From IMG/VR virus record IMGVR_UViG_3300048813_000093, positions 1 through 20,779 of that record: a DNA stretch of 20,779 nucleotides; one strand, given 5' to 3'. Below, piece by piece: positions 1,449 through 20,779 of this stretch. Made by a program: the position numbers and the translations under genes. Position 1 is the stretch's first letter. The number at the start of each line of letters is the position of its first letter. The DNA is from a virus. Below the pieces are notes generated by a model that had not been told where the DNA came from, did no database searches, and saw only the letters and a list, made by a program, of their open reading frames with translations.

Positions 1449-2081
1449 TCAGGCAACCCGACGGCCGACGATGGCCGGCGGCAGATCACCAGTCTCCATC
1501 GGACGCGGCGCGGCCATCGGCCGATTGGATTCCGGTCCCTGCTGCGCAGGCTGGGCAACCGCCATCGCTTTGCGTGGGCGACCGGGTCCGCGGCGCGCGG
1601 CGGCCTGCGCTTCCGGCAGATGCGGCATCGCCGGAATCTGGCCGTGCTGCACCGGCATCTTGATCTCCGGCACCGGCACGGTATCGGCCTTGGCGTCGGC
1701 CATGGCAGTGTCGATCAGCGTGTTCCGATCGGTCACCAGGCCATAGAAATGCCGGCCGCGGCGTGCCGCCATTTCCCGGGCGCCGTCGGTCTGAAGGTCG
1801 ATCTCCACCTGCAGGCGCCGACGCGCGGCGTCGTTCTGCGGCACCATCGTCAGGTTCGGCGGGTCCGTGTAGTCGATGATCGAACCGCGCTCGAAGTAGG
1901 TGTCGTCGTAGTAGCCCGGCTCGTTGAGCAGGTAGCGGGGCACCTCGCCGCGGAACTGGCCCTCGACCACATTGGCCTGAAGCGCCGCCAGCGCCCGCCG
2001 GAGTTCCGCGTTCTCGCGGACCAACGTCGAGTTGCCGTCGTGCTGCATCGCGACTGCGGATGCGCTGTTTTCGTCGGACAT
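1449..2081 (-). CDS. Conserved phage structural-region protein with coiled coil and AT-hook-like motif, 210 aa
   Basis: The ATG at 2081 has AAGGAG (2090-2095) 8 bases upstream. Residues about 20-38 (RENAELRRALAALQANV) form a short coiled coil. The middle holds a YLLNEPGYYDDTYFERGSII block and a GLVTDRNTLIDTA block that look like a conserved phage family of unknown function. Near residues 160-171 is RRGPGRPRKA, with the GRP core of an AT hook, then a Pro/Gln-rich tail that is probably disordered. It lies between the cement protein and the jelly-roll protein, so it is probably a virion or assembly protein. The AT-hook-like stretch suggests contact with DNA, but this is inference. Confidence 0.6.
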   Translation of the reverse strand: MSDENSASAVAMQHDGNSTLVRENAELRRALAALQANVVEGQFRGEVPRYLLNEPGYYDDTYFERGSIIDYTDPPNLTMVPQNDAARRRLQVEIDLQTDGAREMAARRGRHFYGLVTDRNTLIDTAMADAKADTVPVPEIKMPVQHGQIPAMPHLPEAQAAARRGPGRPRKAMAVAQPAQQGPESNRPMAAPRPMETGDLPPAIVGRRVA

Positions 2082-2093
2082 TCAGCAAACTCC

Positions 2094-2122
2094 TTGCTGG
2101 GACAATACCAAACCTGTATACT
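2094..2122 (+). promoter_or_regulatory. Promoter for the plus-strand HNH gene, predicting a leaderless mRNA
   Basis: TTGCTG at 2094-2099 and TATACT at 2117-2122 are separated by exactly 17 bases, close to the sigma-70 consensus. The expected transcription start (6-8 bases after the -10 box) coincides with the ATG at 2130, and there is no Shine-Dalgarno sequence before that ATG. A leaderless transcript is therefore expected. The promoter lies upstream of, and points away from, the minus-strand gene that starts at 2081. Confidence 0.6.
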
Positions 2123-2129
2123 GGCCCAC

Positions 2130-2642
2130 ATGAGAAAGAGAGAAAAACGGCTGCTGACACACGCCCGTCTGGTCGAAGTCCTCGACTACGATCCCGTCAC
2201 AGGTTTCTTCACCTGGAAGCATCGCGCCGACGCGCTGCCGCGCTGGAACACCCGCTATGCCGGCAAGCGAGCCGGGCAGCTTATGGCGAAGGGCTATCGG
2301 CTCATCGCCATCGACAGAGGTATTCCCCAGTACGCCCACCGCCTCGCATGGTTCTACGTGCACGGCGAGTGGCCGCCCAGCGATCTCGACCACGAGAACC
2401 GGCGACGCGACGACAACTGGATCGACAACCTGCGGCCGGCGACCAATTCCCAAAACGGGATGAACAAGAGTGGCGTTCGCGGCGTCAGCTTCTACCCGCC
2501 CACCGGGAAATGGCGAGCGCGTATCAGCGTAGACAAACGCGAAGTCTATCTCGGTTACTTCCTGACGGAAGCCGAAGCGATGGCAGCTAGACGGGAGGCC
2601 GCCGAGAGACTTCATGGTGAGTTTGCCGGCCACCTTCGTTAA
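2130..2642 (+). CDS. HNH homing endonuclease with AP2-type DNA-binding domain, 170 aa
   Basis: A free-standing phage HNH-AP2 nuclease. Residues about 69-105 form the HNH core: AHRLAWFYVHGEWP, then DLDHENRRRDDNWIDNLR and the ATNSQN tail. Residues 114-145 are an AP2 domain (SGVRGVSFYPPTGKWRARI, then YLGYF). The N-terminal section (LVEVLDYDPVTGFFTWK) is the usual leader of this family. It is the only plus-strand gene inside the minus-strand virion operon. It has its own promoter at 2094-2122 with the ATG at the predicted transcript start. Its stop codon overlaps the cement-protein stop by 3 bases. The orientation, promoter and lack of overlap with neighbours mark it as a mobile insertion. Longer upstream starts in the frame run antisense through the 210-aa gene and are rejected. 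Confidence 0.9.
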   Translation: MRKREKRLLTHARLVEVLDYDPVTGFFTWKHRADALPRWNTRYAGKRAGQLMAKGYRLIAIDRGIPQYAHRLAWFYVHGEWPPSDLDHENRRRDDNWIDNLRPATNSQNGMNKSGVRGVSFYPPTGKWRARISVDKREVYLGYFLTEAEAMAARREAAERLHGEFAGHLR

Positions 2643-3193: not shown

Positions 3194-3874
3194 TCACCAG
3201 CAGAGTAGGCCATTTCGGCGCCCGAATTCGATCGGGTCCGATGCGTGCTTCTCCATATTGCACTTGCGGTGCAGCAGACGGATGTTAGACACGCTATTTG
3301 AGCCACCAAGCGATAGCGGCATGTAGTGATCGATGTGCGGGGTGGCATTCCCGAGAGACTTCAGGCACCAAGCGCAGTTGCCATGCTGCTTCTGGAAGAG
3401 CGCAGCGATGTCGGCTGGGGTGAATTCGCCGCCAGCAGCGAGTTTGCGAGCCCGTCGATTCCCAGCATAGGCGACGCCAGCAGCGCGAGCTTTTACTGGG
3501 TCCGCCCAATAGCGTTCGCGAAGCACCTGGCGGTGTTTCTCCGGATTTTCCTTACGCCGTTCGCGTGCACGAGCGTTCGTCACCGTTTTATAATGATCGA
3601 GGCGACGTAGCCTGCGAGCCTTCTGCGCAGCAGTTTCGCGTTCCAGGAACGTCGGATCGGCGGCGATATCCGCCAACCGCTTCGCTTTCTCTTTTGCGAG
3701 AATCTCTTCCTTCTTCGCGTTGTAGCGTGCAGTCGCAGCGGCCTTCTTCGCCTCGCGGTTGGCCTCGTAATGAGCCTTGGCCTTCGCGATCGCCTTCTCG
3801 CGAATTTCAGGATAGCGGGCGATATCATACGCGCGTTTCGCGGCACGCCGCTGCTCAGTCATCACACGCGGCAT
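3194..3874 (-). CDS. HNH endonuclease with long basic helical N-terminal region, 226 aa
   Basis: Residues about 150-215 are a classical zinc-type HNH domain: NCAWC, then HIDHYMPLSLGG, then SNIRLLHRKCN.EK. The first 140 residues are Ala/Arg/Lys/Glu-rich and mostly helical, as in phage HNH proteins that use charged helices to scan DNA. The ATG at 3874 is chosen because AGGAG lies 8 bases upstream; the longer in-frame start at 3955 lies upstream of the predicted promoter. It separates the major capsid gene from the cement gene, which are adjacent in related phages, so it is a homing-type insertion in the same orientation as the operon, with its own promoter at 3909-3936. Confidence 0.88.
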   Translation of the reverse strand: MPRVMTEQRRAAKRAYDIARYPEIREKAIAKAKAHYEANREAKKAAATARYNAKKEEILAKEKAKRLADIAADPTFLERETAAQKARRLRRLDHYKTVTNARARERRKENPEKHRQVLRERYWADPVKARAAGVAYAGNRRARKLAAGGEFTPADIAALFQKQHGNCAWCLKSLGNATPHIDHYMPLSLGGSNSVSNIRLLHRKCNMEKHASDPIEFGRRNGLLCW

Positions 3875-3908
3875 TTCTGGCACTCCTGCGGACAGAATTC
3901 CTGCCGCA

Positions 3909-3936
3909 ATCATACCGGAAAAGTCACGAACTGCAA
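3909..3936 (-). promoter_or_regulatory. Promoter for the minus-strand HNH gene
   Basis: On the minus strand TTGCAG (3936-3931) and TATGAT (3914-3909) are spaced by 16 bases, close to sigma-70 consensus. Transcription would start about 3902, giving a leader of roughly 28 bases that contains the AGGAG site for the ATG at 3874. This would let the HNH gene be expressed apart from the capsid operon. Confidence 0.5.
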
Positions 3937-3987
3937 TGGTAGAATAGCAGCGCATCGCGATTTACTTACTCACCTTTTCAGTGCGTT

Positions 3988-6336: not shown

Positions 6337-6522
6337 ATGAGCAGCACAGCGTCGCTAAACCTGAACCGGCTTACGATCTGCATCACGAACCGGCAGCGGG
6401 AATTCCTGCTGACGCAAATGCGGCATCACCAAATCGGGCTTTCAGATTTTGCCCGCCGGGTTTTTGACTGGGTTTTGGTCCAAATGGACGAATCGGGATC
6501 AGATAAATGGCCCCCTCGGTAA
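6337..6522 (+). CDS. Small ribbon-helix-helix DNA-binding protein, 61 aa
   Basis: The segment LNRLTICITNRQREFLLTQM, then HHQIGLSDFARRVFDWVL, has the ribbon-helix-helix pattern: a short beta strand with alternating polar residues (LTICIT), helix A (NRQREFLLTQMRHHQ), the GLS turn, and helix B (DFARRVFDWVLVQ). Such small CopG/Arc-like proteins bind operator DNA as dimers. It is the first gene of the plus-strand operon and next to the divergent control region, so it may regulate this operon and/or the capsid operon. Its last 16 bases overlap the start of the GIY-YIG gene. The domain call is from pattern only. Confidence 0.6.
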   Translation: MSSTASLNLNRLTICITNRQREFLLTQMRHHQIGLSDFARRVFDWVLVQMDESGSDKWPPR

Positions 6523-6956
6523 TCCCTCACGATGGACCGGGGATTTATTCGATAGCCTGCACAGCCCGTCCTCCTGGACCCTACGCTGGGTGGAAGTATT
6601 TCGGCGGTGCGGTTAACGTGATGGTCCGAACTTACGGACATTTCTGCCAACTTAAGGGAGGTTGGCACACAAATGGGCGCCTGAAAGCCGCCCTGCGTAT
6701 CCATGGTATTGCAGCATTTCAATTCATGCTGCTTGAGACGCTTCCGCTCATGGCAACAGCCGAAGAGATGGCGAAAGCCCTCAACGCCGCCGAACAGCGG
6801 TACATCACCGCTCATTTTGGCAGCCGCTGTTTCAACAGCATGCCACGAGCATGTACGACACTCGGTCTAGGCCGATATGCCGGGAAACCCTGGCCGCCAC
6901 CGCTTTCGCTACGAATAGCTAACGCTACGCCGAATCCGCCACAGGAACTTACTTGA
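6507..6956 (+). CDS. GIY-YIG family homing-type endonuclease, 149 aa
   Basis: Residues 11-34 hold the signature: GPGIYSI followed by a beta strand and KYFGG, equivalent to GIY and YIG. Next come R41 and H45 of the first catalytic helix (MVRTYGHFCQLKGGWHTNGR, then LKAALRIHGIAAFQFMLLET) and the acidic residue in AEQRYI (E96), all in the order and spacing of the GIY-YIG nuclease fold. The family cuts one DNA strand at a time through a metal-bound Glu. Only a short C-terminal tail follows, so a separate DNA-recognition domain is missing; the overlapping ribbon-helix-helix protein at 6337 might supply binding, which is inference. The ATG at 6507 lies within the end of that gene. Confidence 0.8.
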   Translation: MAPSVIPHDGPGIYSIACTARPPGPYAGWKYFGGAVNVMVRTYGHFCQLKGGWHTNGRLKAALRIHGIAAFQFMLLETLPLMATAEEMAKALNAAEQRYITAHFGSRCFNSMPRACTTLGLGRYAGKPWPPPLSLRIANATPNPPQELT

Positions 6957-7013: not shown

Positions 7014-7493
7014 ATGAGTGATTTGGCGGTAGACACGCACGAACTCGCGTGGGCAGCCGGTTTCTTCGACGGTGAGGGCTGCGTCACATTTCGCCGCACC
7101 GGAATCTGGACATCTATCTGCATGTCTGTCTCGCAGGCCGATCGCGGGCCGCTCGACCGCTTTCGGACTGCTGCGACCATCCAGACGGCAATCGTCTGTC
7201 ACCTGATGGCTGGCCGGGACGAGGTTCTGCCGAAATTCAGCGCGTTCGCCTCGCTGGACCGGGACAACATGCCGCCGAGTATCTGGTCGCTGGCGAAGCA
7301 GTTGCTGGACGGCGCCGCCGGCACTCGATACGACGCATGGGACGTGGTCTGCCGCGCTTGGCGGGCGTTTGACCCGAAGAACTGGGAGCAGCAGCGGTTG
7401 CAACTCAAGGGGACCGAAGCCCCATTGTCGGAAATGGCCCGGGTCGCCGACGCCTACCAGCGGGCGGCGACGAGCAAAACCTTTCGCCGGTGA
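7014..7493 (+). CDS. LAGLIDADG homing-endonuclease N-terminal fragment joined to an unknown C-terminal region, 159 aa
   Basis: Residues 9-50 read ELAWAAGFFDGEGCVTFRRT, then SICMSVSQADRGPLDRFRTA, which is the first helix, strand and catalytic acidic residue (the D or E of FFDGEG) of a LAGLIDADG endonuclease with the usual S.SQ.D..PL..F continuation. After residue ~50 the homology stops: the family's G.I..........W........A......L.PYL section is absent. It is replaced by about 105 residues of another protein (SIWSLAKQLLDGAAGTRYDA and a basic tail) that is not recognised. The gene therefore looks like a deletion chimera, and nuclease activity is unlikely without the missing half unless it works as a dimer. 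The stop overlaps the next gene as GTGA. Confidence 0.6.
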   Translation: MSDLAVDTHELAWAAGFFDGEGCVTFRRTGIWTSICMSVSQADRGPLDRFRTAATIQTAIVCHLMAGRDEVLPKFSAFASLDRDNMPPSIWSLAKQLLDGAAGTRYDAWDVVCRAWRAFDPKNWEQQRLQLKGTEAPLSEMARVADAYQRAATSKTFRR

Positions 7494-8683: not shown

Positions 8684-9441
8684 TGGCTGGACACGTCGTT
8701 CTGGTACTCGGCTGCCATCGGAGCGGCACCTCTCTGGTCGCCAACGCGCTGCCATGCCTCGGCGCCAGCCTGGGGCCACGGGCAGCATGGGGTGGCCGGG
8801 ACAATCCCAACTTCGGCGAGGACCTTGATGTCCTGGGGCTGGACGAGCGGCTTATGATGGCGTTCGGTGCGCGATGGGATGATCCAACGCCGCTGCCGGC
8901 CGGGTTCGAGCAATCCATGATAATCGAGTGGGGGTTCGGCTCCGAGGCGATCTGCCTGCTTGCCGATCGGCTAACGGCGCATCCGCTGCTGGCCATCAAA
9001 GAACCGCGGATGTGCCGGCTGTTGCCGTTCTGGCGGAAGATGTTCGCCCAGGTCGGCTGTCGCGTCTCGGTTGTCTTCGTGGTCCGGCATCCCTTGGCAG
9101 TGGCGGCGTCGCTGACGAAGCGGAACGGCATCCCGAAGGAGCAGGGATTGGCGCTTTGGCTGGAATACGTCACCAGGGCGCGGGCGGAAGTCGATCCGGC
9201 ATGGCCCTCCACGACCGTTCAGTACGACCAGATGGCAGTCCTCCCGAGGGTGACGATCCAGGAGATCGGCTACGCCCTTGAGTTGGTGCCGGACGAAGCG
9301 GTGGTCGAGAAATTCGCCGACGAGTTCGTTGACCGCTCCCTGTGGCACCAGGACGAGGGGGACGATGGTGCGCTCCCGGCCGAGGTGCTGGCGGCATGGA
9401 AACTGGAACAGGCGCGAGCAGCGCGAGGGATGGCAGCGTGA
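8683..9441 (+). CDS. Sulfotransferase-family protein, 252 aa
   Basis: It carries the two nucleotide-binding signatures of PAPS-dependent sulfotransferases. The 5'-phosphosulfate loop is VLGCHRSGTSLVANAL (residues 7-22), a P-loop variant with R13, S14, G15, T16 and S17. The 3'-phosphate site is VFVVRHPLAVAASL, with R135 and a following Ser. These enzymes move a sulfate from PAPS to a sugar, protein or small-molecule hydroxyl. The length is typical of short bacterial forms. The ATG at 8683 overlaps the TAA of the membrane protein, and the stop overlaps the next gene as GTGA. With the glycosyltransferase at 10114 and the methyltransferase at 11212 it forms a probable glycan-modifying cassette; the acceptor cannot be read from sequence. 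Confidence 0.78.
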   Translation: MAGHVVLVLGCHRSGTSLVANALPCLGASLGPRAAWGGRDNPNFGEDLDVLGLDERLMMAFGARWDDPTPLPAGFEQSMIIEWGFGSEAICLLADRLTAHPLLAIKEPRMCRLLPFWRKMFAQVGCRVSVVFVVRHPLAVAASLTKRNGIPKEQGLALWLEYVTRARAEVDPAWPSTTVQYDQMAVLPRVTIQEIGYALELVPDEAVVEKFADEFVDRSLWHQDEGDDGALPAEVLAAWKLEQARAARGMAA

Positions 9442-10127
9442 GGTTCAAAGATATCACGGGACAACGGTTCGGTCGCCTCACCGTCATTCAGCCTGCGGGG
9501 CGCAACGTATCCGGAAATGTCCTCTGGATGTGTCGCTGCGAGTGTGGGAGCAATCCCAAGATCGTCAACAGCGGCAATCTCGGTCGGAGTGTAAATTCGT
9601 GCGGTTGCCTTCGGTCCGAACTTCAGTCCGCATTCATGCGGGAAAATGCGGCTTCGTGGGGGACTACCCACGGGGCAAAATCTCGGACCCACTCGATTCC
9701 CCAAAGCTATCGATCTTGGCAGAGCATGCGCACCCGCTGTCTGAACCCAAAAAGTAAATCCTGGGCTTATTACGGCGGCCGAGGGATTTCGATCTGTGAG
9801 CGATGGTGCTCTTACGAAGCATTCCTCGCCGACATGGGCGAAACCACATGTGGAATGGAAATCGAGCGGCTGGACAGCAATGGGAACTACGAACCTGCCA
9901 ATTGCGTGTGGGCAACCCGCACCGATCAGAACAGAAACACGAGTCGCAATCCTCGGATAACACTCTGCGGAGAAACGACCACTATTTTAGCCGCGTGTGA
10001 GCGGTATGGAGTAAAGCCGCATCAGGTTCATCATCGCGTCTGGCGCACTGGCGAAACGCATACGGAAGCGTTCCTGACGATGCTCGGAAACAAGATTGAG
10101 AAGGATGGACGCTATGCCTCGGCTTGA
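9438..10127 (+). CDS. HNH-like phage endonuclease with zinc N-terminus and helix-turn-helix C-terminus, 229 aa
   Basis: It starts at GTG 9438 in a GTGA overlap. Three modules are seen. Residues 1-60 hold DITGQRFGRLTVI, then LWMCRCECG and SCGCL, a cysteine-rich binding region found in phage homing-type proteins. Residues about 95-165 hold YRSWQSMRTRCLNP, YYGGRGISICERW, FLADMG and RLDSNGNYEPANCVWATRT, a divergent HNH-type core in which the usual N..G.Y.P.NC.WAT block is kept. Residues about 180-225 (ITLCGETTTILAACERYGVK, then PHQVHHRVWRTG) are a helix-turn-helix of the NUMOD kind. It splits the sulfotransferase from the glycosyltransferase and is probably a mobile insertion. Catalytic competence is uncertain. 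Confidence 0.7.
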   Translation: MRFKDITGQRFGRLTVIQPAGRNVSGNVLWMCRCECGSNPKIVNSGNLGRSVNSCGCLRSELQSAFMRENAASWGTTHGAKSRTHSIPQSYRSWQSMRTRCLNPKSKSWAYYGGRGISICERWCSYEAFLADMGETTCGMEIERLDSNGNYEPANCVWATRTDQNRNTSRNPRITLCGETTTILAACERYGVKPHQVHHRVWRTGETHTEAFLTMLGNKIEKDGRYASA

Positions 10128-11802: not shown

Positions 11803-12071
11803 CCCTCTCCGCCGAGAAGCGCCGCACCATCGATGCCATCCTCGAGCCGGCGATACGCGAGGTGGAGAGGAAACTGGTCGCCGCCGGCTTCTACGTCGAG
11901 GCTGGCATACTCCTGACAGTAATCGTCCCGAAGGACGAAGCTGAATTCATCACCGTCGAGTGGCGACTTTGGCCGGAGGGGATGCCGGACATTCTCGACC
12001 GGGCGGTCCACGATGCGCTGACGATCGCACCGACAAGTTGGTTCGACGCCGTCAAACGCGGTGTTTCCTGA
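11799..12071 (+). CDS. Unknown small protein at the end of the glycan cassette, 90 aa
   Basis: It starts at GTG 11799, with GGGAGG 8 bases upstream and a GTGA overlap with the methyltransferase stop. The sequence has a helix (AEKRRTIDAILEPAIREVER), a beta section (AGILLTVIVPKDEAEFITVE) and a WRLWPEGMPD turn. No family is recognised. It is the last gene before the transposase region and is followed by a hairpin at 12090-12109. Confidence 0.55.
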   Translation: MTLSAEKRRTIDAILEPAIREVERKLVAAGFYVEAGILLTVIVPKDEAEFITVEWRLWPEGMPDILDRAVHDALTIAPTSWFDAVKRGVS

Positions 12072-12089
12072 CAGCTACCGGAAGCCAAG

Positions 12090-12109
12090 GTCTGCGCTCT
12101 TGCGCAGAC
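12090..12109 (+). terminator. Perfect 8-bp hairpin downstream of the glycan operon
   Basis: GTCTGCGC-TCTT-GCGCAGAC is a perfect 8-bp GC-rich stem with a 4-base loop, 19 bases after the stop at 12071. No run of T follows, so it is not a standard intrinsic terminator. It may end or attenuate the operon, protect the transcript, or mark the insertion site of the neighbouring transposon. Confidence 0.45.
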
Positions 12110-12147
12110 GTCACCTGTCGAGCCACCATCCAGGGGCGAAGTTACAC

Positions 12148-12176
12148 TTGACAAACCCAACCTCCATATATAGATT
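12148..12176 (+). promoter_or_regulatory. Transposase promoter
   Basis: A consensus -35 TTGACA (12148-12153) is followed after 17 bases by TAGATT (12171-12176). The AAGGAG ribosome binding site (12184-12189) and the ATG at 12199 follow. The spacing and boxes make this the strongest promoter seen in the window, and it belongs to the insertion element rather than the phage operon. Confidence 0.65.
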
Positions 12177-12198
12177 GGCGGTCAAGGAGTTAGCCGCC

Positions 12199-13146
12199 AT
12201 GAAGACCACCGCACTTTCCGCCCCGCATCTTCAACATGAGGACGCCGCCTTCGCATATGTCGAGGCGAAGCTGTGGCCCGATGGTCCAGTTTGCTCGCAC
12301 TGCGGCGTGATCGGGCAAGCTGGCAAGCTCCAGGGCAAGAGCGTCCGGCCCGGCTTGTGGAAGTGCTACGCCTGCCGCAAGCAGTTCACCGTCAAGATCG
12401 GGACCATCTTCGAGGCCAGCCATGTGCCCCTGCACATCTGGTTGCAGGTCATCTATCTGATGTGCAGCAGCAAGAAGGGCTTCAGCACCCGCCAGATACA
12501 CCGGACTCTCGGCGGCAGCATGAAGACCGCTTGGTTCCTCGGCCATCGCGTGCGGGAAGCCATGAAGGAAGTCCGCGATCTCTACACCCCACCGCTTGGC
12601 GGCGCTGGCGAAGTCATTGAGGCGGATGAGACTTTCATCGGCCGGAAAAGCAAAAGCAAAGCCTTCAAGCCGCCTGGCGTGAAGCAAGCCGTCATGTCGC
12701 TGGTGGAGCGCGGCGGCAAGGTGCGGAGCTTCCACGTCCCGAACGTGACCGCCAACAACCTGCGTCCGATCATCGGCCGCCACGCGCACCCGGATTCCCG
12801 CTTCATGACCGATGAGTCGCTCATCTACACCGGGATAGGCTGGAATTTCGCCGATCACGGCACCGTGAACCATAGCATCGACGAATACGTGCGAGGCGAT
12901 GTCTATACCAACACCGCCGAAGGCTACTTCTCCATCCTCAAGCGCGGTATTTACGGGGTTTATCAGCACGTTAGCGAGGCCCACCTGAAGCGGTATCTGG
13001 CCGAGTTTGATTTCCGCTACTCCAACCGGATCAAGCTCGGCATCGACGACGCACAGCGCGCCGATCTCGCCCTGGTCGGTGCCAAAGGCAAGCGGCTGAC
13101 CTATCGAACAATTAGTGGAAGCCGGACAGCGCCGCCTGCCGCCTAA
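12199..13146 (+). CDS. IS1595-family transposase, 315 aa
   Basis: The ATG at 12199 follows AAGGAG by 9 bases. The N-terminal zinc ribbon has C32, C35, C56 and C59 (VCSHCG and KCYACRKQF). The catalytic DDE/N core (ISXO2-like) shows VIEADETFIGRK (D143), SRFMTDESLIY (D204) and NTAEGYFSILKRGIYGVY (N238/E241), with the family's HxxxYLAEFDFRYSNR ending. The full length is kept and no frameshift is seen, so the enzyme could be active. It sits between the glycan operon and two bacterial-looking genes in the same direction. A longer in-frame start at 12061 is rejected because it precedes the promoter. Confidence 0.92.
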   Translation: MKTTALSAPHLQHEDAAFAYVEAKLWPDGPVCSHCGVIGQAGKLQGKSVRPGLWKCYACRKQFTVKIGTIFEASHVPLHIWLQVIYLMCSSKKGFSTRQIHRTLGGSMKTAWFLGHRVREAMKEVRDLYTPPLGGAGEVIEADETFIGRKSKSKAFKPPGVKQAVMSLVERGGKVRSFHVPNVTANNLRPIIGRHAHPDSRFMTDESLIYTGIGWNFADHGTVNHSIDEYVRGDVYTNTAEGYFSILKRGIYGVYQHVSEAHLKRYLAEFDFRYSNRIKLGIDDAQRADLALVGAKGKRLTYRTISGSRTAPPAA

Positions 13147-14887: not shown

Positions 14888-15093
14888 GAATCAAGCCTTT
14901 CGCGCTTTGCTGCCGCGCCGCCGGCCAGCGGCTTCGGTCCCTTCGGTGGCTCGACGGCTACGCCTTCTGCTGAAGGGCGGCGCTTGCCGCCGCGACCTAG
15001 GCTTACTCTCGGCCCGGCCACCCACGGCTTCTTCCTCCCGCATTCAAAGCAGATCGGCTCGGCGATGAGTTGCGGGCAGCGGGTGCAGGTCAA
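14884..15093 (-). CDS. Small zinc-binding protein upstream of the lysozyme, 69 aa, TTG start
   Basis: The best start is TTG at 15093, overlapping the TGA of the preceding gene; its own TGA overlaps the lysozyme ATG, so both ends show the coupling used in this cluster. CTRCPQLIAEPICFECG gives two Cys pairs (CxxC..CxxC), a compact zinc ribbon. The remainder is Lys/Arg/Pro/Gly-rich and disordered. There is no family match. The TTG start is inferred from overlaps rather than from a binding site. Confidence 0.5.
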   Translation of the reverse strand: MTCTRCPQLIAEPICFECGRKKPWVAGPRVSLGRGGKRRPSAEGVAVEPPKGPKPLAGGAAAKRERLDS

Positions 15094-15290
15094 TCTTTTG
15101 CGTCCATCGCCATCTTCTTCGGGTCGATGTGACCCTTCATGGCAGCCCAATATCTCCGCATGTTTGCACCAGCGCAAGGATCGCAGCAATCGCAGCGGTA
15201 GCCCTTCGGCGGCGTGTGAAAGTCGGCCTTCGGTCTGAAAGCCTTGCAGACTGAGCACCACTTGGTTCCGGCAGGGGGTTCCTTCTTCAT
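15090..15290 (-). CDS. Small zinc-binding phage protein, 66 aa
   Basis: It starts at ATG 15290, overlapping the HNH gene stop (ATGA); an ATG at 15302 is also in frame. WCSVCKAFRPKADFHTPPKG, then YRCDCCDPCAG, is the pattern of small phage zinc-finger proteins in which two CxxC pairs sit about 20 residues apart (CxxC....F.........CxxCxxC). The C-terminus is short and basic. It is probably a nucleic-acid or HNH-type relic binding module; no catalytic His is present. Confidence 0.6.
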   Translation of the reverse strand: MKKEPPAGTKWCSVCKAFRPKADFHTPPKGYRCDCCDPCAGANMRRYWAAMKGHIDPKKMAMDAKD

Positions 15291-15736
15291 GAGCGCGGCC
15301 ATACATCAGCCAGCGTGGCGAAGCCAGTGCGCGGCGGCCCATACTTAGCTGGCTCGCCAGCGGGGATGAACTTCGGTGGCGGTTCTGCTTTTACCTGTAA
15401 TGAGTGCAGCCCCCATTTTGAGGCGATGCCAATTTCAGACATCGCTGATTTTGGTTTTGCAACGGCCCTGACGCAAGCGACCGCCCCCCAGCAGTGACCA
15501 CACATCCCACGAAGAGCATTGCAATGGGCGCACATGATCTTGTGCATGATCGTCCCATCTGGATAGGTGTAACGGCGCGTCCTGGGCAGGATGTGGTCGC
15601 GCGTCGCCGATCGCTTGGTGTTGCCGGCCGGCTCCATTGGATCGCCGCACTGCGGGCATAGGACTTGCTCCCCGCTCGCTTTGGCGAGGTCGAAGAGAAG
15701 CTCCTTAGACTTCCGGAAGCCAGTCGTTGCGCTCAT
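15287..15736 (-). CDS. HNH endonuclease-like protein, 149 aa
   Basis: An HNH fold with zinc pairs: LCPQCGDPM (C27/C30), the catalytic strand SATRDHILPRTR in which DH is the metal-binding pair, then KIMCAHCNALRGMC (second pair plus the HNH Asn). A basic N-terminus precedes it. About 60 residues after the domain are of unknown fold. It may be a homing or packaging-related nuclease; HNH proteins near terminase assist packaging, but no terminase is in view. It lies 34 bases downstream of the 156-aa gene. Confidence 0.7.
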   Translation of the reverse strand: MSATTGFRKSKELLFDLAKASGEQVLCPQCGDPMEPAGNTKRSATRDHILPRTRRYTYPDGTIMHKIMCAHCNALRGMCGHCWGAVACVRAVAKPKSAMSEIGIASKWGLHSLQVKAEPPPKFIPAGEPAKYGPPRTGFATLADVWPRS

Positions 15737-16812: not shown

Positions 16813-17025
16813 CTATGAAGGCGTCGCCTCTGGCTTGTCAAGCGCCGCGTTCGCCTCGGCTTTGCCGATCAATTCGAGAATCCGCATAGCCTGATCGCGA
16901 CGGATCGCGAACCCGCCGCCCTCACAGACCGGGATGCTGCGGATCACGAGACCCCTGAGCATCACCCAGTCCGGCATCGCCGAATGATAGCGCGGCTCAA
17001 CGCCGGCAAGCGGATCGTCGGTCAT
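16813..17025 (-). CDS. Small phage protein of unknown function, 70 aa
   Basis: It starts at ATG 17025, which overlaps the Dam-family methylase stop (ATGA); the longer frame starting at 17151 would lie inside that gene. The sequence is an acidic start, then MPDWVMLRGLVIRSIPVCEG, then a C-terminal helix with RRDQAMRILELIGKAEANAA. No domain is recognised. It is likely co-translated with the methylase and lies just upstream of the tRNA. Confidence 0.55.
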   Translation of the reverse strand: MTDDPLAGVEPRYHSAMPDWVMLRGLVIRSIPVCEGGGFAIRRDQAMRILELIGKAEANAALDKPEATPS

Positions 17026-17546
17026 CGTTCGCCCTCCGCCTGGGCGAACAGCGGGGCGTCTCGACGCAGGTGGACGAAGAAGCCGGACAAGCCGCAGTTC
17101 TCCAGAAGTTCGGCATCCTCGCGGCCATAAGCAATGAGCGCGATCGGGCAACCGCTGTTCGCCTTGGCGCGCGAGCCATCCTGATAATGGAAGTGTGGCC
17201 GTCCTTGCAGGAACAGGACCGCCGCAGCATGCCGCCAGACCCAGTTGAACCAGATTGCCGTTTCTGTCCTAGCGGCTAGAAGCGCGGTGCCGTGGTTGTG
17301 GCTGGCCATCATCGCCATAAAGCCATTCAGCAACGGAAGCGGACCGAAGGGCGGGTTGAGCCAGACACGGCCGTACCAGGATCGGATCAGCCCGTAAGGC
17401 TCAACGATATGGCTGGCAGCAGTCGACCACGGTCTCGGCAGCGGACAGGCACACGGATCGAGGTCGAACGGGCCTAACGCATCGATGATCGCTGGCGGTG
17501 TCAGCCAAACGACCGACTTCGCCGCCGCCGACTGATGCGATCCCAT
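17022..17546 (-). CDS. Phage Dam-family adenine methyltransferase-like protein, 174 aa
   Basis: Motifs typical of the phage N6-adenine methyltransferase family are present: the GSHQSAAAKSVVWLTPPAII start (W14-TPP), FDLDPCA near residues 27-33, WLNPPFG with the catalytic N64-P65-P66-F67, and HGTALLAARTET. The family methylates adenine in DNA, often to protect phage DNA from host restriction. The ATG at 17546 is chosen because family members begin just before this GSH; it has no good ribosome binding site, and a GTG at 17558 is an alternative. The gene follows the large methylase by 16 bases, so two adenine methylases are neighbours. Confidence 0.8.
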   Translation of the reverse strand: MGSHQSAAAKSVVWLTPPAIIDALGPFDLDPCACPLPRPWSTAASHIVEPYGLIRSWYGRVWLNPPFGPLPLLNGFMAMMASHNHGTALLAARTETAIWFNWVWRHAAAVLFLQGRPHFHYQDGSRAKANSGCPIALIAYGREDAELLENCGLSGFFVHLRRDAPLFAQAEGER

Positions 17547-17562
17547 CGACCGTGTCACTGGC

Positions 17563-18534
17563 TCACCCTGGTGCTGCAGCGAATAGCGGTGCGTCCGCTC
17601 CAGACACATGCGCAATCCGCCGGCGGCAATCCTCGGCTGACTGCGGATCCCGCTCGATCATGGTGCAGTTGAAGCCCTCCGCCATCGCGGCCATGCCGGT
17701 CGTGCCACTGCCGGCGAAGGGGTCGAGGATGTGGCAGCCCGGCGAACCGACCAGCCGCGCCAGATACCGAATAAGGTCGACCGGCTTGACGGTCGGGTGT
17801 TTCGAGCCGAGCCGGTCTGCAGCGTCAGCTTTGCTCGTGTAATGAAACCGCTTCGGCTCGCAATCCGATCCCCCAAGACCCGCGCTCGGAAGCGTGATGT
17901 CGAATGTGACAGCGACGGCAGAGCCACCGAATTTCGAGAGGCTTGCTGTAATCGTCGTGATGTCGGTCTGCTTTGGGGTTGCTGCACACTCCACAAGGTC
18001 GCTTTTCAGGGTAAGCCTTTGCGGCTGCAGCCCGCGCGAGAACCTTTGCGCGATATTGAGGGTCAGCCCTATAACGCTGTCGCATAGCGTCCTTAATTCG
18101 ACCGCCGATACGCTCGTAGAGGGTGCCCGGTAGCTTTGCCAGATCGCCGCCAATCCGGCTGTTGTTTGCTCCACTGCACTGCATAGAGCAGAAGCGGCGA
18201 GTTCGCTTTGCAGGTCGATAGCTGACCCCGCACCGCTCACATTGATAAATGCGTTCCATTCGTCCTCGCTGTAGGGGCATGATTTAAAGAAACGTGCTGC
18301 CGAACCGGCGTCGCCGCGGGGATCAGCGCCGCCAATTCGGGCGCGCATCCCGGAGAACGACACAGCGCCGCTAAAACCGTTCGCTGTCGGTTCGTTGCCT
18401 GTCACGCGGGCTTGCTGGCCCGGCGCATTCGGGAACGCCGCCAGGACTTCATCGCTGCCGGGATTCGGGAGTTTTGCGAACAGCGCCTTGAGATGCGGCG
18501 GCAACTTCGCCCATTCTTTTTCACCGATCTGCAT
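17563..18534 (-). CDS. C-terminal (AdoMet-binding) half of a split phage DNA adenine methyltransferase, 323 aa
   Basis: The half begins with the phage-methylase segment EWAKLPPHLKALFAKLPNPG, then SDEVLAAFPNA, and reaches DAGSAARFF at residues 75-83. A run of 146 extra residues follows, then FHYTSKADAADRLGSKHPTV and KPVDLIRYLARLV, then LDPFAGSGTTG (residues about 271-281), the AdoMet-binding FxGxG motif of beta-class methylases. In ordinary members ARFF and HYTSKAD are adjacent. The extra residues are the alternative-frame reading of the HNH gene 17825-18259. The ATG at 18534 has GGGAGGA 6 bases upstream, inside the end of the HNH gene 18521-19126. The DPPY half is separate (19113-20510). Confidence 0.75.
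   Translation of the reverse strand: MQIGEKEWAKLPPHLKALFAKLPNPGSDEVLAAFPNAPGQQARVTGNEPTANGFSGAVSFSGMRARIGGADPRGDAGSAARFFKSCPYSEDEWNAFINVSGAGSAIDLQSELAASALCSAVEQTTAGLAAIWQSYRAPSTSVSAVELRTLCDSVIGLTLNIAQRFSRGLQPQRLTLKSDLVECAATPKQTDITTITASLSKFGGSAVAVTFDITLPSAGLGGSDCEPKRFHYTSKADAADRLGSKHPTVKPVDLIRYLARLVGSPGCHILDPFAGSGTTGMAAMAEGFNCTMIERDPQSAEDCRRRIAHVSGADAPLFAAAPG
17825..18259 (-). CDS. HNH endonuclease nested in the C-terminal half of the methyltransferase, 144 aa
   Basis: Residues 7-28 are a zinc finger (YQCERCGVSYRPA, then RRFCSMQC), then a basic helical linker, then PCGVCSNPKADRHHDDYSKP and LEIRWLCRRCHIRHH at 88-122: two Cys pairs with the HH catalytic pair of phage HNH proteins. The ATG at 18259 has GAGGA just upstream; an ATG at 18280 is possible. 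It lies in the +2 frame relative to the methylase, and its last codons cover the methylase YTSKAD codons. The insert is about 438 bases, almost exactly the HNH gene, so there is no room for a self-splicing intron. Confidence 0.85.
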   Translation of the reverse strand: MERIYQCERCGVSYRPAKRTRRFCSMQCSGANNSRIGGDLAKLPGTLYERIGGRIKDAMRQRYRADPQYRAKVLARAAAAKAYPEKRPCGVCSNPKADRHHDDYSKPLEIRWLCRRCHIRHHASERGSWGIGLRAEAVSLHEQS

Positions 18535-19126
18535 GGAACGTCCTCCCGTGTTCTGTGTAATGGCACGGCTGGCAGAGCGCGGTGCCGCCATCAAGGCACC
18601 ACAGAACGTCGGCATGTCGGCGCGCATCCTCGCGGGACCGGATGCCAAGCCGCTCAATCAGTTCGGCCAGCGGCGGCGCATGGTGGCTTTCGAGGGCTTC
18701 GGTCGCCCCGCACCCTTGGCAAACGCCGTCACGCTGACGCACCGCTTCCATCCACCGCCGGTTCTCCGTCATCTGCCGGATGGATGTGTTCAGGCGCGAG
18801 ACGCCGCCCTTCCAGTTGTAGGCGTTCTCGCCCCGGTGACTTTCGCCGCGCGCCACCGCTCGATCTGGATGCGCTGCCCAGAATGCCTTGCCTGTCTCGC
18901 CAATCTTTCGCTTCGAGTCATCTCGATGCCGATATCCAGCGCGGTGATTTGTGCCTTTCGGCCTGCCGAGCCGAAGCCCAGCCTGCTGCGCGTCTGTGAC
19001 GCCGACGATTCTCTGTGCTTCGCTACGGCAGTTCATGCAGGCTGCAAAACGTGATCGCGCCGCATCCGATGGCCGCCGATAAAGCGGCTTCTCACATAGA
19101 ATGCATTTTGTATTAGGCGTTCTCAC
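18521..19126 (-). CDS. HNH endonuclease that splits the methyltransferase, 201 aa
   Basis: I placed the start at GTG 19126 (AGGTGG upstream) because the protein then begins like the third HNH: VRTPNTKCILCEKPLYRRPS; an ATG at 19189 is possible but its binding site is too close. Modules in order are a zinc pair region (C8, C11, then CMNC), a NUMOD3-like GRPKGTNHRAGYRHRDDSKR stretch, a YNWKGGVSR patch, and the HNH core VCQGCGATEALESHH, then WCLDGGTALCQPCH. The upstream methylase frame stops at 19113, just inside this gene. Its last codons contain the GGGAGG site for the second methylase half. Confidence 0.85.
   Translation of the reverse strand: MRTPNTKCILCEKPLYRRPSDAARSRFAACMNCRSEAQRIVGVTDAQQAGLRLGRPKGTNHRAGYRHRDDSKRKIGETGKAFWAAHPDRAVARGESHRGENAYNWKGGVSRLNTSIRQMTENRRWMEAVRQRDGVCQGCGATEALESHHAPPLAELIERLGIRSREDARRHADVLWCLDGGTALCQPCHYTEHGRTFHADR
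18541..18547 (-). promoter_or_regulatory. Strong ribosome binding site for the second methylase half, inside an HNH gene
   Basis: On the minus strand GGGAGGA lies 6 bases before the ATG at 18534. It sits within the HNH codons for HGR, 18 bases before the HNH stop. It allows ribosomes to start the AdoMet-binding half independently, which is what a split enzyme would need. Confidence 0.6.
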
Positions 19127-20510
19127 TGAGCCACCTGAATAGTTCTTGCCGTTGCTCGGCTGTAGTGTCGGGTCGCAGTATATACTCATCCTCTGGATAT
19201 GAAAGGATCACGTTCGCGGGCCAGCGGCCGAGCGGCGCCGGCTCAAACGTCCTACGCTCCCGCCGCACTTCGTAGGACGTTTGAGCCGTGTTGACGCCCT
19301 GCGTTACCGCATTCTCCGCATAGCCGTCGGCAGTCGGCACCCGGCACCCATCAATGTTCAGCGCCCCGCACCCATGCGCCAGAACGTTCGCCGCAACCGT
19401 GCCGATTAGCGGCTTGCGGGCGACGCAGATAATCTCGGTGGCAGGCTTTAGCGCAGTGCCTAAACCGTCAGGAAGACGCGGTTTGCCGCACCTTCGGCAA
19501 TGCGGCCATGCTCCCACATCTTGTGCGATCGGTTGTCCGGCCACAGTTCCAAGTTGGTCCGGTCCGCGTTGTTCAGCGGCTTGTGGTCTATGTGGTGAAC
19601 GCATTCCACTCTCGTCAACGGGCGACCGATCCAGCGGGCCATCACCAGCCGGTGCTCCATCACGTAGCCATCCTTCCTCGCCATCGCCAACAATTCCAGC
19701 GGGCAACGGACGTATCGAACCTGCACGTAGTTTCCCCGCCGATGGCGGTAGGTCACACCGCCCTTCCATGCTGGGTTCGCTGGTCCGCGCTTCACCGGCC
19801 AGTTCGATCCCTTTACCGGATGCGCTCGATTGCGGCAGCGGCGGGAACAGAACTTGCCCTTGTTCAAGATCAGAGACGAGCGACGCCGATACATCGGCGC
19901 CCCGCACAGGTCGCACGTCACGTTGGGCTTTCGGCCGATTTGCGTCTTCACCACAGCAGCAGATTGTATCACCTAATGCCTTGTTTACGCTATGACTTTT
20001 AGGAAAGCCCGTGGAATAATGCCACATGATCGAGTCCCGGATTTCGAAGCCGGCGTCTTCTATGGCGCACACCAGCCGGTGATAAGTCCGCGTGCCGCCA
20101 AACGCGAGTAGGTGGCCGCCCGGCTTGATTACGCGGAAGCACTCGCGCGCCCAAGCCTCGCACCACTCCTGAAACTTCGCCATGTCGGACAGTTTGTGAT
20201 CCATGTCGTCGAACTGCGGCGTGGCGCATGAACAGGCGACGTGATTCTTGCTCCCCCGTTTATGCTTGTGGCAGGTTTTGCACATCGGATTGCGCGAGGA
20301 AGTAAATGTCGGTCCGGCAGCGCGGCCCTTCGTGTCCTTCATGCCGTAGGCCTGCATTCCGTATTTCCACGGCGCATCCCATTCCTTGCCCATGAACTCC
20401 AAGCCATAGGGCGGATCGGTCACGATGGCGTGGAAGCTGTCAGCCTCCAGCGTCGGCAGCACCGCCAAGCAGTCGCCTTCAATCAGCTTCACTCGATCTG
20501 TCGTTCTCAT
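19113..20510 (-). CDS. N-terminal (catalytic DPPY) half of a split phage DNA adenine methyltransferase, 465 aa
   Basis: After MRTTDRVKLIEGDCLAVLPT comes IVTDPPYGLEFMGKEWD, with the catalytic DPPY at residues 32-35, then a Cys/His cluster (CKTCHKHKRGS..HVACSC), FRVIKPGGHLLAFGGTRTYH and IRDSIMWHYSTGFPKS. About 168 extra residues then follow NKALGD, before GLGTALKPATEIICVARKPL, GTVAANVLAHGCGALNIDGC and GRWPANVI. The extra part is the alternative-frame reading of the HNH gene 19460-19972. The stop at 19113 falls where the HNH gene 18521-19126 was inserted, so the AdoMet half is lost from this polypeptide. A GGGAGG lies about 12 bases before the ATG at 20510; earlier in-frame starts lie in the upstream gene. 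Confidence 0.75.
   Translation of the reverse strand: MRTTDRVKLIEGDCLAVLPTLEADSFHAIVTDPPYGLEFMGKEWDAPWKYGMQAYGMKDTKGRAAGPTFTSSRNPMCKTCHKHKRGSKNHVACSCATPQFDDMDHKLSDMAKFQEWCEAWARECFRVIKPGGHLLAFGGTRTYHRLVCAIEDAGFEIRDSIMWHYSTGFPKSHSVNKALGDTICCCGEDANRPKAQRDVRPVRGADVSASLVSDLEQGQVLFPPLPQSSASGKGIELAGEARTSEPSMEGRCDLPPSAGKLRAGSIRPLPAGIVGDGEEGWLRDGAPAGDGPLDRSPVDESGMRSPHRPQAAEQRGPDQLGTVAGQPIAQDVGAWPHCRRCGKPRLPDGLGTALKPATEIICVARKPLIGTVAANVLAHGCGALNIDGCRVPTADGYAENAVTQGVNTAQTSYEVRRERRTFEPAPLGRWPANVILSYPEDEYILRPDTTAEQRQELFRWLSENA
19460..19972 (-). CDS. HNH endonuclease nested in the N-terminal half of the methyltransferase, 170 aa
   Basis: It starts at GTG 19972 with AAGG 6 bases upstream. A zinc-finger start (VTCDLCGAPMYRRRS, then FCSRRCRNRA) is followed by the phage HNH patch NPAWKGGVTYRHRRGNYVQV and the catalytic core YVMEHRLVMARWIGRPLTR, then VHHIDHKPLNNADRTNLELW, with the H-N-H residues in place. 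It occupies the +1 frame relative to the methylase, between its GFPKSHSVNKALGD and GLGTALKPA blocks, which are near each other in uninterrupted members. The methylase frame stays open for the whole length. Its zinc start resembles that of the HNH at 18521, suggesting related recognition modules. Confidence 0.88.
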   Translation of the reverse strand: MIQSAAVVKTQIGRKPNVTCDLCGAPMYRRRSSLILNKGKFCSRRCRNRAHPVKGSNWPVKRGPANPAWKGGVTYRHRRGNYVQVRYVRCPLELLAMARKDGYVMEHRLVMARWIGRPLTRVECVHHIDHKPLNNADRTNLELWPDNRSHKMWEHGRIAEGAANRVFLTV

Positions 20511-20548
20511 GCTTAGCTTATGCCTCCCACCCAATGGAGGCGCAACGG

Positions 20549-20779
20549 TTAATCGGCTGACAACTCCATCTGTCGAGCGTCGGTGCGTCCTTTCTTGGCC
20601 GACGCATCGTAATACTCGAAGGGGACGGCCCGGTACAGGCCGGTGACCACCCATCGCTGAAACCGCTTCAGGCTACGATACCGCTCTGGGTCAGTGGTCC
20701 GGCAATCGAACACCATCGGGAACGGCTCGATGCCCCGCGCCACCATCGCGTTGAACCGCTCCCATATCGCCGGCCATGT
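20549..20779 (-). CDS. C-terminal end of a phage protein, possibly radical SAM type
   Basis: The frame is open to the right edge, so only the last 76 residues are seen. They read TWPAIWERFNAMVARGIEPF, then PMVFDCR, ERYRSLKRFQRWVVTGLYRA and VPFEYYD. The pattern IEP.PMV.D......LK.FQRW...GLYR..P is what I associate with the C-terminus of phage radical SAM-like proteins (late beta strand and capping helix of the barrel). The CxxxCxxC cluster that would prove it is outside the window, so the function is tentative. A 38-base gap separates it from the methylase start. Confidence 0.45.
   Translation of the reverse strand, partial: TWPAIWERFNAMVARGIEPFPMVFDCRTTDPERYRSLKRFQRWVVTGLYRAVPFEYYDASAKKGRTDARQMELSAD

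Follow-up and report, generated by a model that had tools for sequence, protein, structure and literature searches.

The window analysed here, a 20,779-base virus record (IMGVR_UViG_3300048813_000093), carries on its minus strand a gene for a beta-class DNA methyltransferase (MTase) in which three HNH nuclease genes, subsequently referred to as HNH1, HNH2 and HNH3, lie between conserved blocks (Table 1). The MTase is encoded in two halves that are collinear with the phrog_67 profile (profile positions 120-257 correspond to 19113-20510 and positions 268-348 to 17563-18657). The Pfam model N6_N4_Mtase is matched in the same order, with residues 2-91 in half A and 147-216 in half B. The DPPY motif precedes the S-adenosylmethionine (AdoMet)-binding motif and the fold is that of an MTase, as is characteristic of beta-class DNA N6-adenine/N4-cytosine MTases, and neither half has lost its catalytic motifs. 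The predicted fold of an unsplit relative, L068, resembles CcrM, M.RsrI and similar enzymes, and all three insertion sites map in or beside low-confidence loop regions of this model.

All three intervening open reading frames (ORFs) match HNH-type nucleases in PHROGs (HNH1 with a best E=6e-19, HNH2 with 2e-5 and HNH3 with 3e-10). An Rfam search of positions 17000-20779 for introns gave no matches, and intein splice blocks are absent from the window, although relatives carry them. HNH1, HNH2 and HNH3 are mutually unrelated and share one MTase gene without intron or intein. The initial annotation had proposed just this from the sequence: one MTase in two collinear halves, and a different homing-type nuclease at each of three sites. 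It had also named two findings that would speak against it. Native MTase domains are not what the three segments represent, as they are missing from about 80 related viral MTases, and the halves do not come from two enzymes, as both belong to one family.

Table 1. Features of the MTase locus and other genes of the window
Feature	Position	Strand	Remarks
Whole stretch (window)			20,779-base virus record
Beta-class MTase gene	20510-17563	-	three HNH genes between conserved blocks
MTase half A	20510-19113	-	DPPY motif
Block A1 of half A	19968..20510	-	codons 1-181; DPPY motif; ends ...GFPKSHSVNKALGD
Site-1 insertion in MTase frame	19467..19967	-	167 codons, 0 stops; predicted disordered; CxC near start, CxxC near end
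HNH1 nuclease ORF	19460..19972	-	+1 frame relative to MTase; stop overlaps returning MTase sequence GLGTALKP
MTase block A2	19182..19466	-	GLGTALKP ... GRWPANVILSYPEDEY
C-terminal tail of half A	19113..19181	-	derived from HNH2 insertion; ILRPDTTAEQRQELFRWLSENA + stop
HNH2 nuclease gene	18521..19126	-	GTG start overlaps half A stop; 3' end overlaps half B start
MTase half B	18534-17563	-	AdoMet-binding motif
N-terminal head of half B	18460..18534	-	mostly derived from HNH2 insertion; MQIGEKEWAKLPPHLKALFAKLPNP
MTase block B1	18286..18459	-	GSDEV ... GSAARFF
Site-3 insertion in MTase frame	17842..18285	-	148 codons, 0 stops
HNH3 nuclease ORF	17825..18280	-	+2 frame relative to MTase
MTase block B2 to stop	17563..17841	-	YTSKADAADRLGSKHPTVKP ... 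LDPFAGSGTTG, AdoMet-binding motif
Dam-type DNA adenine MTase gene	17022-17615	-	ORF overlaps half B end by 53 bases
IS1595-family transposase gene	12061-13146	+	within phage fragment
Further homing-type nucleases	1620-2642 (+), 3194-3955 (-), 6507-6956 (+), 7014-7493 (+), 9342-10127 (+), 15287-15736 (-), 15090-15302 (-)		five likely and two weak

The MTase frame is free of stops across both HNH1 and HNH3, which are read in other frames of the same DNA. The HNH1 of the window is inserted into the MTase itself, some 14 codons past GFPKS. Using HNH1 alone as query, we retrieved 80 viral loci, and in nearly all of them it lies within the MTase gene in the identical phase, with no stops in the MTase frame and 3 to 22 in the third frame. 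The number of stops to be expected was obtained by shuffling synonymous codons within each gene. For 74 distinct HNH1 loci, 535 MTase-frame stops were expected and 34 observed. All 34 fall in two loci, L098 and L111, in which the MTase does not surround HNH1 as it does elsewhere and whose stops are at chance level (19 versus 21.3 expected and 15 versus 12.7, respectively). The 72 distinct nested loci have none, compared with about 500 expected; for the HNH1 of the window the expectation is 4.1 (p=0.007). Strong matches to HNH3 were found at site 3 in every case, in a single phase and with the MTase frame open, and 33 distinct loci contain no MTase-frame stop where 28 were expected. At 39% G+C, the MTase frame through HNH3 is still open while the unused frame has 22 stops. 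The open MTase frame through HNH1 and HNH3 is selected; openness by chance from high G+C is ruled out by the synonymous shuffling and by the low-G+C relatives.

It could be argued that the methylase is dead, wrecked by repeated insertions and decaying, and that its open frames merely reflect a high G+C content. The gene is indeed split in the window. However, the missing stops (about 500 for HNH1 and 28 for HNH3) are missing at 33-45% G+C as well, the catalytic motifs are preserved in both halves, and split alleles that have lost their nuclease retain the additional ends described below. A dead methylase is therefore improbable.

About half of all substitutions sit on third codon positions of the nucleases. 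In the codons of the MTase, the same bases occupy the first position (HNH1) or the second (HNH3). The nuclease frame is thus the constrained frame, with a purifying pattern, and the MTase insert seems largely free to vary, barring stops. AlphaFold assigns the site-1 insert a predicted local distance difference test (pLDDT) score below 50. Just before its end, a CxxC motif is present in the MTase frame of 20 of the 25 distinct loci whose HNH1 lies directly within the MTase, often paired with a CxC near the insert start. Among long linkers, 19 of 39 have the CxC...CxxC pair, compared with 1 of 133 short linkers. We discarded the idea that these pairs are native to the MTase, since the sole short-linker case (L160) is a partly deleted HNH1 insert. 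Possibly, the cysteines form a zinc clamp at the base of the site-1 loop. In L160 and L161 (3001-3198), the HNH1 insert is partly deleted while the MTase frame and the CxC...CxxC ends are retained, a decaying state of site 1.

How might the nested nucleases be translated? In most loci, the HNH3 starts directly precede the first zinc-finger cysteines. The candidate HNH3 starts of the window are ATG 18280 and ATG 18259, the latter preceded by a weak Shine-Dalgarno-like site; HNH1 most likely starts at GTG 19954 or 19951. With a Shine-Dalgarno-like site defined by a duplex energy of -6 or lower, one was found before the HNH3 start in 16 of 39 loci compared with 12% of control ATG/GTG codons (p=6e-6), and before the HNH1 start in 6 of 17 (p=0.01). 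For each locus we used the best among a few candidate starts, which slightly favours the HNHs; using the nearest start only, the shares are 38% and 35%. Textbook ribosome-binding sites precede HNH3 in L148, L203 and L232. Alternatively, the nucleases could be made as MTase-HNH fusions via programmed frameshifting, which would agree with the constant phase within each family and with the several HNH1 starts that lack a clear ribosome-binding site. Against it, a start codon immediately precedes the first zinc-finger cysteines in most HNH3 loci, and ribosome-binding sites are enriched there, some of them of textbook quality. No slippery motif caught our attention, though no formal search for one was made. 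We consider frameshifting very improbable.

Only HNH2 breaks the MTase frame. Its start is most likely GTG 19126, not ATG 19189. The stop of half A falls among the opening codons of HNH2 (window, GTGAGAACGCCTAA; most relatives, ATGAGAACGCCTAA), the start of half B lies within the last part of HNH2, and stop and start codons overlap at both junctions. This A-HNH2-B arrangement is common to roughly 18 contigs, always with HNH2 in the +1 and half B in the +2 frame relative to half A. Unlike sites 1 and 3, the split loci have many stops in the unused frames. With the HNH2 insertion, half A has gained some 20 codons at its end and half B another 20 or so at its start, namely a tail with the consensus xLxxxITPEQxxELxxWLxENA and a head with the consensus MxIDExTYxxMPxxLxALF. 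Among the loci compared for occupancy, regular expressions for tail and head matched HNH2 loci only. Two empty alleles, L281 and L283, read straight through the site (GRWPANLILSYPEDEYDDAGNLLPNPGKDEV and GRWPANLILTYPNDAHDADGNLLPNPEKDEV, respectively). The SYPEDEY sequence is present in these unsplit alleles too, which rules out that the whole SYPEDEY...ENA segment is element-borne.

In L259-L262, HNH2 is internally deleted with its two ends left; the gene is still split, and tail and head are intact. L273 is a similar nuclease-deleted split allele. Site 2 is thus known in an empty, an occupied and a nuclease-less state, and the tails outlast the nuclease. The natural reading of the alleles is that the two halves probably dock via tail and head, for which the splits of Aeh1 nrdA and T4 gene 60 (PMC2988022) are precedents. 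A single-sequence query with HNH2 found no matches in viral contigs or phage records; an alignment query did find relatives there, and gave one weak match in named bacterial and archaeal genomes. PDB searches with the HNH2 and HNH3 profiles returned nothing strong.

A different arrangement was observed in 46 HNH1 loci (L088, L103, L104, L107-L109, L112, L113, L115-L121, L123-L129, L131-L135, L137, L140-L155, L157 and L159). Here an intein interrupts the MTase at YG|C...GN|SGFPKS, the published ShiLan/Dorothy methylase intein site. The frame of the intein stays open, and a different frame within it encodes the HNH1 relative. The intein was identified via its splice blocks, its similarity to the ShiLan gp65 intein (up to 90% identity in the C-terminal 29 residues and E=1.7e-11 for the N-terminal profile) and a PDB intein match (E=2.7e-8); NCBIfam and Pfam did not recognise it in the relatives. 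By its sequence, the in-frame middle region of the ShiLan gp65 intein looks like a LAGLIDADG domain. The out-of-frame HNH1 within these inteins is possibly the most novel observation of all.

Among the retrieved loci, the occupied sites are none, 1, 2, 3, 1+2, 1+3 or intein+2, and only the window has 1+2+3. The nucleases are present sporadically at fixed sites, empty alleles exist for sites 1, 2 and 3, and the relatives span metagenomic phages of 33-67% G+C. The identity of the HNHs correlates weakly with that of the MTase flanks (rho 0.01 to 0.37, 10-12 loci each), a pattern consistent with separate inheritance. The hot spot suggested by the initial annotation is borne out by these combinations, and the loci with zero, one or two HNHs that it recommended searching for in metagenomes do exist. 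Its description of a gene interrupted by three HNHs is correct for HNH2, which breaks the frame, and has to be revised for HNH1 and HNH3, which overprint an MTase ORF that runs through. The native remainder is also somewhat shorter than the 297 + 177 codons it had calculated, because about 20 + 20 of these came with the HNH2 insertion. The tails borne by HNH2 for both halves and a published read-through precedent (PMC11855218) were missed.

Second HNH1-like genes lie elsewhere in the same MTase in L148 (4243-4728), L150 (3778-4248) and L088 (3890-4042), suggesting insertion sites beyond the three. The MTase linkers before GWGTALKP are 115-140 aa long in eight loci (L007, L013, L019, L030, L032, L042, L076 and L081) and by eye appear to contain an in-frame XRE-type helix-turn-helix domain. 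In L066 (4436-5275), an in-frame, A+T-rich insert of 280 codons occupies the same linker.

Relatives of HNH1, HNH2 and HNH3 occur almost only within this MTase family. Such an association would be expected of a compact restriction-modification unit, with the HNHs as restriction enzymes nested in the gene of the protecting MTase. The MTase halves match type II MTase models. However, three unrelated HNHs share one MTase, and each is missing from most relatives. Deletions erode the inserts and leave the MTase in place (L160, L259), and the HNH1 family is also found in the endonuclease region of inteins, which is a homing context. PADLOC gives no restriction-enzyme match for the HNHs. We consider a restriction-modification unit improbable.

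We consider it likely that the MTase was colonised at three sites by three mobile HNH genes, each in an arrangement that still allows production of the host enzyme. Reading through sites 1 and 3 would give a full-length MTase whose loop insert is long and probably disordered, with translation of the nuclease beginning at an internal start codon of its own. At site 2, half A, HNH2 and half B are three ORFs linked by overlapping stop and start codons, and the insertion supplies half A with a tail and half B with a head, which probably hold the halves together.

Several points weigh against this interpretation. The relatives are metagenomic contigs retrieved by similarity, duplicates included, so that population frequencies cannot be read from their numbers. 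Confidence in the fold models is modest (mean pLDDT 65 and 57). The HNH3 of the window gives no information by itself, zero stops having a probability of 0.58, and the case for its open frame stands because of the relatives. The HNH1 of the window has no clear ribosome-binding site and its HNH3 a weak one, and therefore initiation there could also need coupling or leaderless starts. The tails, too, could serve translational coupling instead of docking. Homing, nuclease activity, internal initiation, the activity of the split and insert-bearing MTase and docking by the tails are all things that we infer.

More tentatively, the three genes might be host-sparing cassettes, each with a non-splicing device of its own: cysteine-clamped read-through at site 1, read-through at site 3 and a splitter with docking tails at site 2. 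The HNH1 family, which is found in inteins too, might then link splicing and non-splicing lifestyles.

A read-through HNH in a phage methylase, the ShiLan domain, was reported in 2025 (PMC11855218), and a genome announcement of the same year names one more phage (PMC12613952). Like HNH1 and HNH3, the ShiLan domain is a zinc-finger-flanked HNH that is read in a frame other than that of the MTase and lies in an insertion without MTase-frame stops, at a conserved site in the same MTase family and without splicing signature. However, it is inserted after GWGTALKPS with the HNH in the third frame, whereas HNH1 of the window precedes GLGTALKP in the second frame and HNH3 follows GSAARFF. All three sites of the window lie elsewhere, HNH2 splits the gene, and three HNHs occur together. 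HNH1 and HNH3 therefore work like the ShiLan domain but are not the same element. In L120, the MTase frame closes downstream of HNH1 (after 3492), near the ShiLan-domain site, which points to a frame-breaking or decayed element. The methylase intein of the ShiLan/Dorothy gp65 type (PMC9957025) is located in the same MTase close to site 1, but the window has no splice blocks and its HNH1 lies directly in the MTase.

HNH2 resembles the splits caused by homing nucleases in T4-type phages, such as Aeh1 nrdA/mobE, T4 gene 60-39/mobA and phage 25 gene 43 (PMC2988022). There, too, an enzyme is divided into two ORFs with a nuclease between them and overlapping or coupled frames, and Aeh1 NrdA is functional as two chains (PMC2988022). 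Here, the host gene is an MTase, the HNH belongs to another family, and a conserved tail and head are found in many phages, along with empty and nuclease-less alleles. Element-derived tails have reportedly also been described for Aeh1 NrdA. In the literature, we found no description of the three sites, the frame phase of HNH1, the triple occupancy or a splitter that carries tails. These features, including a life cycle of the splitter that can be read from its alleles, appear to be new. The statistical evidence for selection of the open frame and the candidate internal ribosome-binding sites are further additions to what is known of such elements.

The phage is unusually rich in homing-type nucleases, with five likely and two weak further ones in its 20.8 kb (Table 1). 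It also carries an IS1595-family transposase gene and a second MTase gene, of the Dam type, which overlaps the end of half B.

On the usual view, a homing nuclease spares its host gene by residing in an intron, in an intein or between genes. Overprinting with an open host frame is a further, widely used solution, and beside it stands a splitter carrying conserved tails. The question raised with the ShiLan domain, how a hidden nuclease is translated, receives a testable answer in internal starts, which in many relatives have enriched ribosome-binding sites.

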